From IMG/VR virus record IMGVR_UViG_3300009184_004198, positions 1 to 27,679 of that record: a DNA stretch of 27,679 bases; one strand, given 5' to 3'. The notes under the pieces are model-generated. The model saw only the letters and a program-made list of their open reading frames with translations. It was not told the origin of the DNA and searched no databases. Origin of the DNA: a virus. Made by a program: the position numbers and the translations under genes. Shown one piece after another: positions 14,536 to 19,522 of this stretch. How positions within the stretch are numbered: position 1 is the stretch's first letter; each line of letters opens with the position of its first letter.

Positions 14536-14609
14536 GCGCCCTTAGCTCATTAGGTTAGAGCAACTGACTCATAATCAGTGGGTGACAGGTTCGATTCCTG
14601 TAGGGCGCA
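14536..14609 (+). tRNA. tRNA with CAU anticodon (Met or Ile2)
   Basis: Acceptor GCGCCCT/AGGGCGC, D arm GCTC...GAGC, anticodon arm ACTGA-CTCATAA-TCAGT with anticodon CAT, T arm ACAGG-TTCGATT-CCTGT, discriminator A. It differs strongly from the CAU tRNA at 6052, so the two probably serve different codons or roles. Confidence 0.92.
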
Positions 14610-14686
14610 CAAAACGTTCTTTTTTTAATGGCTGAGTGATGAAATAGGTATACATGCGAGACTTTGAGATATATTCTAGTTTATTA

Positions 14687-14696
14687 GATATTTATA
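14687..14696 (+). promoter_or_regulatory. Candidate late promoter inside the intron
   Basis: GATATTTATA, 3 nt before the HNH start at 14700. The HNH gene could therefore be transcribed late and independently of the pre-tRNA, as T4 I-TevI is from a late promoter within the td intron. Confidence 0.5.
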
Positions 14697-14699
14697 AGT

Positions 14700-15191
14700 A
14701 TGAATATAAAATATACAAAAGAATTATTAGAAGAGGTAGTTAAAAAATGTGGTTCTTTTAGACAAGTATTATTTCAATTAGGGTTGAAAGAAGCGGGTGG
14801 AAATTATAAAAACATCCAAACGAGAATAAAACAATTTGAAATTGATACATCACATTTTCACGGACAAATATGGGGTAAAGGTAAAACTTGGAGTAAGATA
14901 AAAGATTTATCTGAAATATTAGTTGAAAACTCTACATACACCAGTGGACTTCCAAGGAGTACATATAGTTTAAAGAATAGATTATTTAAACTAAACTATA
15001 AGGAAAAGGTTTGTGAAATATGTAATAATACAGAATGGATGGGTAAACCAATCCCATTAGAGTTACACCACATCAACGGTAATAAGTTTGACAACAGGAT
15101 TGAAAATTTACAAATTTTGTGTCCAAACTGTCATTCATTTACCGACAACTACCGAGCTAAAAATATGAGTGCTAAAGAGGAAACTCTTTAA
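14700..15191 (+). CDS. Intron-encoded HNH homing endonuclease
   Basis: 163 residues. The N-terminal region (YTKELLEEVVKKCGSFRQVL, GGNYKNIQTRIKQFEIDTSH) is the helix-turn-helix-like part common in phage HNH enzymes. The C-terminal HNH has CEICNNTEW, PLELHHINGNKFDNRIENL and LCPNCHSFTDN: two Cys pairs for the structural zinc and HH...N...H for catalysis. It is expected to cut intronless tRNA-Leu(UAA) alleles and promote intron homing. It ends 164 nt before the 3' splice site, leaving the ribozyme core intact. Confidence 0.9.
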   Translation: MNIKYTKELLEEVVKKCGSFRQVLFQLGLKEAGGNYKNIQTRIKQFEIDTSHFHGQIWGKGKTWSKIKDLSEILVENSTYTSGLPRSTYSLKNRLFKLNYKEKVCEICNNTEWMGKPIPLELHHINGNKFDNRIENLQILCPNCHSFTDNYRAKNMSAKEETL

Positions 15192-15410
15192 GTAGAACTC
15201 CGTAAATTCGGTGAACCCTGTAAAATGGGAATACCGAGCCAAGCCCGAAAGGGAAGGTGTAGAGACTAGACACGGAGAACCTAAATCAGAAATGATATGG
15301 TTAAGGTATAGTCCAGACTACAAACCGAAAGGGTAGTGAAAACTATAGTAGTAAGAAAATCTCGTGGACATAGCGTCCGTGCGGGTTCGACCCCCGCCTC
15401 AGCTACAACT

Positions 15411-15435
15411 AAACCCCCTTACGAGGGGGTTTTTA
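15411..15435 (+). terminator. Intrinsic terminator after tRNA-Leu(UAA)
   Basis: AAACCCCCT-TACG-AGGGGGTTT followed by more T. Confidence 0.85.
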
Positions 15436-15994: not shown

Positions 15995-17854
15995 ATGGGA
16001 AAAATTATAGGAATTGACTTAGGTACAACAAATTCGTGTGTTGCGGTCATGGAAGGCTCGGAGCCTGTTGTAATTACAAACAGTGAAGGAAAAAGAACCA
16101 CCCCTTCAATTGTGGCATTTGCAAATGGTGGTGAAAGAAAGATTGGTGACCCCGCTAAAAGACAGGCAGTAACTAATCCTGAGAAAACAATATCATCTAT
16201 TAAGCGTTTTATGGGAACTGGCTTTGATGAAAGTAAAAGTGAAGTTAATCGTGTTCCTTACAAAGTGGTAAATAGTAAAGGTACACCACGTGTTAAGATT
16301 GATGATAAAGAGTACTCACCACAAGAATTATCTGCGATGGTTCTTCAGAAGATGAAACAAACTGCTGAAGATTACTTGGGTAGTGAAGTGACTGAGGCAG
16401 TTATCACCGTACCTGCATACTTCAATGACGCTCAACGTCAAGCGACAAAGGAAGCTGGCGAGATTGCGGGATTAACAGTTAAACGTATTATTAATGAACC
16501 AACCGCTGCGGCACTTGCTTACGGATTGGACAAACAATCTAAAGATATGAAGATTGTTGTGTTTGACTGTGGTGGAGGGACTCACGACGTATCAGTGTTG
16601 GAACTTGGTGATGGAGTATTCGAAGTATTATCAACTGATGGTGACACTCACCTTGGTGGTGATGACTTTGACCAAGCGATTGTTGATTGGTTGGTGAAAG
16701 AATTCCAAGATGAGAATGGATTGGACTTGACTAAGGACCCAATGGCTCTTCAACGTTTACGTGAAGGAGCTGAGAAGGCTAAGATTGAATTGTCATCTTC
16801 ACCATCTACGGAAATTAACTTACCATATATTATGCCTGTTGACGGTGTCCCAAAACACTTGGTTCGTACTTTATCAAAATCAAAGTTTGAACAACTTGTT
16901 GACACTTTGGTTCAAAGAACAATTGAACCTTGTAAAAAGGCAATGACTAACGCAAATCTTACTGTTGGTGATATTGATGAAATCATTTTGGTTGGAGGTT
17001 CAACACGTATTCCGGCAATTCAGGAAGCGGTTAAGAAGTTCTTTGGTAAGGACCCATCAAAAGGTGTTAACCCTGATGAAGTTGTTGCGTTAGGAGCGGC
17101 AATTCAAGGTGGGGTACTGGCAGGTGATGTTAAGGATGTATTGTTGTTAGACGTTACACCACTATCACTTGGTATTGAAACAATGGGTGGAGTGTTCACA
17201 AAGTTGATTGATGCTAACACAACCATCCCAACCAAAAAGTCACAGGTATTCTCAACGGCAGTTGATAACCAACCATCTGTAGAGATTCACGTATTACAAG
17301 GTGAGAGAGCGATGGCGAAAGACAACAGAACCATTGGTCGTTTCCATTTGGATGGTCTTCCACCAGCAATGAGAGGTATTCCACAGATTGAGGTTACATT
17401 TGATATTGACGCTAATGGTATCATTAATGTATCGGCTCTTGACAAGGGAACCAACAAACAACAAAACATTCGTATTGAGGCGTCATCAGGACTTTCGAAA
17501 GAAGAAATTGAAAAGATGAAACAAGAAGCTGAGATGAATGCTGACGAGGATAAAAAAATGAAAGAGGAAGTTGAGACAATCAACACTGCTGACAATACAA
17601 TCTTCCAAGTTGAAAAGGCTTACAAAGACATTGAAGATAAATTAACTGAAGAGCAAAAGAACGATATTGATTCATCGTTGAATGATTTAAAAAATGCAAA
17701 ATCAGAAAGAAACATCGATTTGATTAAAGAGTCAATGGAAAAAGTTAATACAACTTTCCAAAAGATTTCTGAGGTCCTATACTCGAATTCTGGTCAGGAT
17801 AACCCTGATGTTGAAGTTTCTGATGTTGATTTTGAAGAAGTGAAATCAAACTAA
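15995..17854 (+). CDS. dnaK: Hsp70 chaperone DnaK
   Basis: 619 residues, close to full length. The ATPase domain has [70 protein letters not shown] and [13 protein letters not shown]; the substrate-binding domain has [17 protein letters not shown], the linker, and a helical lid; the C-terminus ends in an acidic tail ([14 protein letters not shown]) rather than the EEVD-like or Gly-rich tail of many homologues. The GGGTHD form and [10 protein letters not shown] are typical of flavobacterial DnaK as I recall, pointing to acquisition from a host. No DnaJ or GrpE gene is in the window, so host co-chaperones would be needed. It may assist virion assembly or replication under stress. Confidence 0.97.
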
Positions 17855-18694: not shown

Positions 18695-19522
18695 ATGAAA
18701 GACACAAAAACTTACAATGAATTAGTCCAAAAAATGAGGACATTTTTCCAATCAAAAGGATTTAAAGAAGTTCCAACACAATCGAGATTATCAATCTTAG
18801 CCGCATGTGAAAATCCACACTCAATAACAACATTCAATTATCAGGGAGAGGTTTGGCCATTACCACAAACAGGACAAATGTGGTTAGAATACGAACTCCT
18901 TAAAAATCCTGAATGGAATGGTGTTTACTGTATATCAACATCCTACAGACAAGAAAAAGACCCAATCCCTGGCAGACATGAATTAATTTTCCCAATGTTT
19001 GAATTTGAATCAAAAGGTGGAATGAAAGAAATGATAAAACTTGAATCAGAACTTTTAGACTATTTAGGTTTTGATAAACCTATTGAGGTTAACTACGACG
19101 ATGTTTGTGAAGAATATGGTGGAGTTCCAATTTTAGAAAATGAACATGAGACAAGAATGTGGGAAGAAAAAGGGTCAGTAGTCTCTCTTCAAAATTTCCC
19201 TTATAGAACAAATCCATTTTGGAATATGAGAGAGAGTGAAAATAGAATATTCAATAAGGTTGACGTAATTCTTTACGGTCAAGAAACAATTGGTTCGGCA
19301 GAAAGAAGTTCTAATGTGGAAGAAATGAGAAATAACTTTTACACAATTGAGAATGGTGGATATTCTGCTAAGTTGTTTGAACTATTCGGAAAAGAAAGAG
19401 TTGAAAAAGAATTGGAAGAATTCTTATCACATGACTTCTTCCCACGTTTTGGTGGTGGAATCGGAATGACAAGACTTGCCAGAGCTTATCAGTTAATGAT
19501 GGAAGAAGTTGAGGCTTTTTAA
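18695..19522 (+). CDS. Stand-alone class II aminoacyl-tRNA-synthetase-like enzyme (Asp/Asn/Lys group)
   Basis: 275 residues comprising only a catalytic core. Motif 2 is ISTSYRQEKDPIPGRHELIF with FPMFEFE following (the Arg...H-E-x-x-x-F-E pattern), and motif 3 is GGGIGMTRLARAYQLM with the Arg that binds ATP. LPQTGQMWLEYELLKN matches the substrate-site block. There is no OB-fold anticodon-binding domain. Related stand-alone cores include AsnRS paralogues that act as asparagine synthetases and EpmA-type ligases that modify proteins, so amino-acid activation is probable but the acceptor is not known. It lies after a terminator, 38 nt upstream of the endolysin gene. Confidence 0.8.
   Translation: MKDTKTYNELVQKMRTFFQSKGFKEVPTQSRLSILAACENPHSITTFNYQGEVWPLPQTGQMWLEYELLKNPEWNGVYCISTSYRQEKDPIPGRHELIFPMFEFESKGGMKEMIKLESELLDYLGFDKPIEVNYDDVCEEYGGVPILENEHETRMWEEKGSVVSLQNFPYRTNPFWNMRESENRIFNKVDVILYGQETIGSAERSSNVEEMRNNFYTIENGGYSAKLFELFGKERVEKELEEFLSHDFFPRFGGGIGMTRLARAYQLMMEEVEAF

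Follow-up and report, generated by a model that had tools for sequence, protein, structure and literature searches.

Does a group I intron that occupies the tRNA-Leu(UAA) position in a virus genome descend from the intron of cyanobacteria and plastids, or does it belong to elements that reach this position by their own mobility? Among group I introns, that of tRNA-Leu(UAA) is the usual example of great age and immobility, and its position is common to cyanobacteria and plastids (PMC4033280, PMC5733544). At the same position, the DNA analysed here (an IMG/VR virus record of 27,679 nucleotides, referred to in its entirety as the window) carries an intron with a homing endonuclease gene that appears to be under selection, and closely related phages have alleles with and without the intron; kindred elements occur in Bacteroidales chromosomes and, lacking an open reading frame (ORF), in conjugative plasmids. 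These features of a mobile intron at the tRNA-Leu(UAA) site therefore make the choice between 'old and vertical' and 'repeatedly mobile' a testable one. There is good support for classing the intron of the window as a mobile group I intron, known in kind but new in its setting, and introns inserted here are able to pass from one genome to another. Our preferred reading, to which we assign a probability of about 0.85, is that of a homing endonuclease-driven, mobile, IC3-like group I intron of the anticodon loop that circulates among Bacteroidota phages and their hosts.

The split tRNA gene

With introns allowed (option -i), ARAGORN identified a tRNA-Leu(UAA) gene at position 14630 with a 691-nt intron after gene nucleotide 35 (U34), and it made no tRNA-Leu(UAA) call in the window when introns were disallowed. 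Once joined, the exons were cleanly recognized as tRNA-Leu(taa), whereas 500 shuffled controls gave not a single intron-containing tRNA call. The 5′ exon, from the acceptor stem to U34, spans 14630–14664 and the 3′ exon, from A35 to the discriminator base, spans 15356–15405 (like all of the features of this locus described below, on the plus strand), while the group I intron between them (14665–15355, 691 nt, with G as its last base) was delimited by a match to RF00028, by comparison with empty sites and by covariation. The interval 14630–15405, presented as the intron in a preceding sequence-only reading of the window, corresponds to the whole split tRNA gene and not to the intron itself; the proposal at the heart of that reading, a tRNA-Leu(UAA) gene split by an intron with an HNH gene, is confirmed by ARAGORN, RF00028, Pfam HNH_3 and phrog_10822.

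The tRNA-Leu exons of L039 (L numbers denote loci compared with the window), which contains a 198-nt intron, and of the intronless L346 and L384 are identical, reading ...CAAGACTT before and AAAATCTTG... after the junction, and shifting the junction in either direction breaks this identity; the junction after U34 is therefore unambiguous, and it is the same in the window. The tRNA-Leu(UAA) gene is split between U34 and A35, a site that had been suggested from the letters of the window and is now borne out both by ARAGORN and by intronless alleles with identical exons. A junction one base later, after the third T, would have the loop read a UUA anticodon and is excluded by the intronless allele.

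The split gene belongs to a tRNA cluster in which tRNA-Met(CAU) lies directly 5′ of it (14536–14610; called by ARAGORN and scoring 70 bits in Rfam). Directly 3′ of it stands a hairpin resembling an intrinsic terminator (15411–15432), from a search that returned four terminator-like sites against 0.8 expected from the shuffled control. The phage probably infects Bacteroidota, because one of its proteins (1309–2901) has a CHU_C type IX secretion domain (Pfam, E = 1.1e-16), which lends support to the previous attribution to a probable Bacteroidetes phage. The window also encodes a full-length DnaK (Hsp70, E = 1.5e-255; 15995–17854), together with a protein of 275 amino acids that resembles class II (D/K/N) tRNA synthetases (18695–19522).

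Structure of the intron

When a short stretch was searched with Rfam, RF00028 was matched at 15149–15337 with 53.8 bits (gathering threshold 50, E = 1.2e-12); the same match was lost in a scan of the whole window with default filters. The structure was evaluated in an alignment of 36 introns from phages, Bacteroidales, Alphaproteobacteria and Acidobacteria, in which P2, P3, P4, P5, P6, P6a, P7, P8, P9 and the P9 branches were considered. Over 52 pairs in 12 helices, 96.9% of the cells are paired and 36 of the 52 pairs change on both sides, giving a covariation score of 0.57, compared with 0.19 for shuffles and no more than 0.13 when the structure was slid along the alignment. Covariation supports the core that defines a group I intron, namely P3–P8 with the P3/P7 pseudoknot, P4–P6 and P9.

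P2 (15173–15179 with 15184–15190) is a hairpin with a GAAA tetraloop in which all seven pairs change on both sides (93% paired), and P3 (15198–15203 with 15272–15277), which encloses P4–P6, varies in the same manner at each of its six pairs (100% paired). The guanosine-binding helix P7 (15264–15268 with 15309–15313; 99% paired) is pseudoknotted with P3 and encloses P8 (15278–15302), and the P9 domain (15317–15352) combines the ACTAC/GTAGT stem with an inner GAAA-capped hairpin, with both P9 and P9b covarying.

P1 is formed by the internal guide sequence GAGU (15167–15170), the GAG of which is invariant in the 36 introns, paired with A31, C32, U33 and U34 of the exon. U34 is thereby placed opposite G15167 and the intron terminates in AGTAAG, in agreement with the rules for the 5′ splice site and the last G of group I introns. 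As P1 is short (four pairs) and invariant, covariation is uninformative for this helix. A different partner for P1 near 14678 (CTAGTTTA) was discarded: it would place U34 opposite a U, and the guide sequence of relatives is the GAG just before P2.

GAAA loops cap P2 and P9b, and P5 is small, a combination that we take to fit subgroup IC3; by architecture alone, the intron may be classed as IC3-like. In the cyanobacterial and plastid tRNA-Leu(UAA) intron, which is small and IC3-like, P2 and P9 end in GNRA loops. The predicted structure suggests that the intron of the window is self-splicing.

The HNH gene in the P1 loop

Alignment with the ORF-less introns of L198, L028 and L039 reveals an insertion of about 500 nt in the loop of P1 (14665–15166), where ORF-less relatives mostly have some 8–30 nt. 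The inserted DNA carries an ORF of 163 amino acids resembling HNH homing endonucleases (14700–15191), the 3′ end of which overlaps the guide sequence (codons ATG AGT GCT) and P2, so that the end of the protein and the ribozyme share DNA. The protein combines an N-terminal helical, DNA-binding-like part with a C-terminal CxxC..HH..N..CPNCH arrangement, and matches Pfam HNH_3 (E = 7e-6) and, almost from end to end, phrog_10822 (E = 3.5e-49), a family of HNH endonucleases whose function, like the target of this member, is only putative. The CxxC, HH, N and CPNCH motifs are invariant in six homologues, one of them from a Bacteroidales chromosome, and a dN/dS of 0.078 between the window and L002, a single pair, indicates that the gene is under purifying selection. 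In an AlphaFold model of moderate confidence (pLDDT 69), the N-terminal part is helical and the C-terminal part resembles an HNH domain; a structure search of the PDB returned no confident fold match for the model, and no sequence match for the protein was found in the same database. The intact motif and the two family matches support the claim that the intron carries a homing endonuclease gene, and the protein presumably cleaves DNA.

Introns at the same tRNA-Leu(UAA) site in L050, L075, L052, L059, L036 and L051 contain other types of ORF, some of which are unlike the HNH protein of the window, and endonuclease genes appear to have been swapped among introns at this site. In Sphingobium cupriresistens (L317), a tRNA-Leu(UAA) intron of about 1636 nt has a 400-residue integrase-like ORF instead of the HNH gene; this insert could be an integrated element.

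Presence and absence in related phages

Among phages collinear with the window, the tRNA-Leu(UAA) gene is intronless in L342, L355, L359, L391 and L346, contains an ORF-less intron in L198, L028 and L039, and shares the HNH-bearing intron of the window in L002. Upstream of the intron, L002 and L342 show 87% similarity across 1.86 kb, and downstream of it 86% across 1.83 kb; their collinearity is interrupted only by the intron and the tRNA exons. As expected for homing, the HNH ORF lies within an intron that is absent from close relatives (L342, L355 and L346). The identical exons of L039 and L346, one with and one without the intron, imply that an intron has been gained or lost.

The 5′ exon of L002 differs from that of the intronless L342 at eight of 35 positions and from that of the ORF-less L198 at two of 35 (counted by eye), and the tRNA exons of the HNH-bearing alleles match those of L198 and not those of the nearest intronless phage. 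Co-conversion, in which exon DNA travels with the intron, would explain why the exons of L002 are closer to L198 than to L342; replacement of the whole tRNA gene or cluster is a possible alternative.

In the mechanism that we propose for this homing intron, P1 would hold the 5′ exon and P7 would bind an external guanosine, as the structure suggests, and the intron would excise itself between U34 and A35, restoring the tRNA. The HNH protein encoded in the P1 loop would cut or nick tRNA-Leu(UAA) genes that lack the intron, whether in the host or in a co-infecting phage, and repair of the break would copy the intron and, at times, flanking tRNA exon DNA as well. The near-invariant anticodon loop of tRNA-Leu(UAA) would offer a single intron target across very diverse genomes, in which the element would pass through HNH-bearing, decayed, ORF-less and absent states; the direction of transfer is one that we infer.

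Distribution among viruses, bacteria and plasmids

In pattern scans, tRNA-Leu(UAA) proved to be interrupted by an intron after U34 at about 118 virus loci, 111 of which represent 79 distinct introns; the loci include the 735-kb megaphage LR756501. Around half of the introns at virus loci are ORF-less and measure 190–270 nt, and most of the others measure 600–970 nt. Introns at the same site are also present in Alphaproteobacteria, where they are many, in other Pseudomonadota, in Acidobacteriota, in Bacteroidota and in a few more groups. In a Bacteroidales chromosome (L262), a 725-nt intron encodes an HNH protein 50% identical to that of the window; at the same chromosomal locus in L296 the intron is decayed, with only the tail of the ORF left, and the intron of another Bacteroidales locus (L255) is ORF-less. 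These chromosomal introns adjoin mreC/mreD/rodA-like genes.

ORF-less introns at the same site occur on conjugative plasmids of Enterobacteria. In the Escherichia coli plasmid NZ_CP023816.1 (L453, 685–982), a tRNA-Leu(UAA) gene that is missing from the annotation is interrupted by a group I intron of about 220 nt with no ORF, and pCTX-M3 (NC_004464.2; L458) carries the same module of tRNA and intron, which on resistance plasmids lies next to aac(3)-IId and a gene for an AAA ATPase. Nearly unchanged, the module is found in 1280 plasmid records and in 635 of 5426 complete E. coli genomes. Its nearest relatives among the sequences compared are chromosomal copies from Alphaproteobacteria (83%), which may hint at an alphaproteobacterial source.

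Relation to the cyanobacterial and plastid intron

A tree was calculated from 146 intron cores over about 200 columns. Its backbone is weakly supported; the Bacteroidales introns group with HNH-bearing phage introns (support 100/93 and 100/96) and those of Phaeodactylibacter with Alphaproteobacteria (97/92). A phylogeny of the core, which the sequence-only reading had named as a check on the cyanobacterial connection, gives no support to a special tie: a single clade of all tRNA-Leu(UAA) introns, as opposed to those at other sites, is rejected (AU p = 1.9e-78), and the tree requires no fewer than 18 changes of site label. Because introns of tRNA-Met, tRNA-Lys, tRNA-Arg, tRNA-Thr and capsid genes interleave with those of tRNA-Leu(UAA) and the single clade is rejected, the tRNA-intron family must be regarded as one that changes sites. 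These results, together with the close cores in the phage tRNA and capsid genes just named, would fit a history in which members of one family reached the same anticodon-loop site repeatedly and independently, through homing or reverse splicing between tRNA genes, with the cyanobacterial match as one such arrival and not a special one. We give this explanation not quite an even chance: the cores are short and inner support is uneven, and the placement of the Bacteroidota introns on two branches is not significant. Two arrivals within Bacteroidota were accordingly not retained as a finding, as a single Bacteroidota tRNA-Leu clade is not rejected in a quick tree (AU p = 0.7) and in a careful tree (AU p = 0.25).

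The site that the phage intron was said to share with the cyanobacterial and plastid intron is indeed the same, in the same gene and at the same junction after U34. It does not support a special tie to cyanobacteria, the family using this site in several bacterial phyla and many phages. The signature strings that had been cited for such a tie fare no better, since GAGCCAAGCC and GAAGGTGYAGAGACT are also found in introns of tRNA-Arg, tRNA-Met, tRNA-Thr, tRNA-Lys, tRNA-Asn and capsid genes; they do not single out cyanobacteria because they are common to the whole tRNA-intron family. Descent of the phage intron from the ancient cyanobacterial and plastid lineage, mobilized by the gain of an HNH gene, is in our judgement unlikely. 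The identical insertion site and the shared tRNA-intron core are in its favour, as is an Anabaena intron, taken as a provisional reference, that aligns with up to 66% identity over 192 columns; however, the core strings extend to introns at other sites, and this reference is no closer to phage tRNA-Leu introns (mean identity 0.449) than to phage introns of other genes (0.452) and is unplaced in the tree, on a branch 1.28 long. In addition, two motifs regarded as canonical for cyanobacteria had no match in 2.9 million viral contigs, and searches of plasmids and phages with the provisional Anabaena sequence yielded no usable match. The likeness to the Anabaena type lies in the gene and the junction, whereas the phage copy differs in its HNH gene in the P1 loop, its phage setting and its presence/absence alleles, and the kinship is apparent at the level of the family.

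A reversed view, in which introns in the anticodon loop of tRNA-Leu(UAA) are carried chiefly by phages and plasmids and the cyanobacterial and plastid intron is a captured, HNH-less descendant and no proof of vertical descent from before plastids, seems to us a long shot. Finally, the idea that the intron is immobile and passed on vertically while its passenger ORF decays, as the ORF remnant of L296 and the ORF-less relatives might suggest, is scarcely credible in view of the intact HNH motif and low dN/dS, of the syntenic presence and absence between closely related phages, which contradicts it, and of a sporadic spread in which the family model, for any tRNA, finds matches in 27 genomes out of 296 from Bacteroidota and, within the order of L262, in three out of 295.

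Comparison with known introns

The tRNA-Arg, tRNA-Ile and tRNA-Leu introns of Alphaproteobacteria, Betaproteobacteria, Beggiatoa and Thiomargarita, the last two of which have been reported to contain tRNA-Leu-TAA introns (PMC4853749), belong to the same small anticodon-loop group I family; the bacterial tRNA introns found here are mostly ORF-less and chromosomal, unlike that of the window. Phage introns of the SPO1, Bastille and Twort type, mostly of subgroup IA, likewise combine a ribozyme with an HNH gene in a peripheral loop, and endonuclease and ribozyme are exchangeable (PMC11878797); these introns, however, lie in protein genes, whereas that of the window lies in a tRNA gene.

According to a review, the phage introns then known were all in protein-coding genes, despite the many tRNA genes of phages (Hausner et al., 2014; PMC3984707). 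Introns in the tRNAs of Lak megaphages, which infect Prevotella and thus resemble the present case as Bacteroidota phages with introns in tRNA genes, were later presented as the first in phage tRNAs (Devoto et al., 2019; PMC6784885); they lie in tRNA-Tyr and tRNA-Thr, among others, and are called enigmatic, and the main text of that paper contains no description of HNH-bearing group I introns in tRNA-Leu(UAA). Introns go unmentioned in the main text of the paper on huge phages (PMC7162821), and a search of the open-access literature turned up no account of phage tRNA-Leu(UAA) introns that bear an HNH gene.

The gap noted in 2014 is now filled, in that phage tRNA genes often seem to contain group I introns; these also look under-annotated, being missed because default tRNA and Rfam scans fail. 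In the cultured jumbo phage Atu_ph07 of Agrobacterium (L454, 1189–1550), the host of which is the laboratory strain C58, tRNA-Leu(UAA) is interrupted at the same site by a 278-nt intron that is absent from the annotation; Rfam missed this intron, which scores 170 bits with the model built here. Gordonia phage Daredevil (L457, 1089–1400) has an unannotated 238-nt group I intron in tRNA-Lys(UUU). Anticodon-loop introns of the same family are present in phage tRNA-Met, tRNA-Arg, tRNA-Thr, tRNA-Lys and other tRNA genes (L209, L149, L157, L136 and L156, with further loci including L163, L130, L214 and L135). Closely related cores lie within capsid genes of Pelagibacter-type phages (L010, L013 and L141), and a more distantly related one lies in the ribonucleotide reductase gene of Rhizobium phage RHph_N3_13 (L012). 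Two contigs named Pacearchaeota (L226 and L232), possibly binning errors, contain tRNA-Asn introns of the same family.
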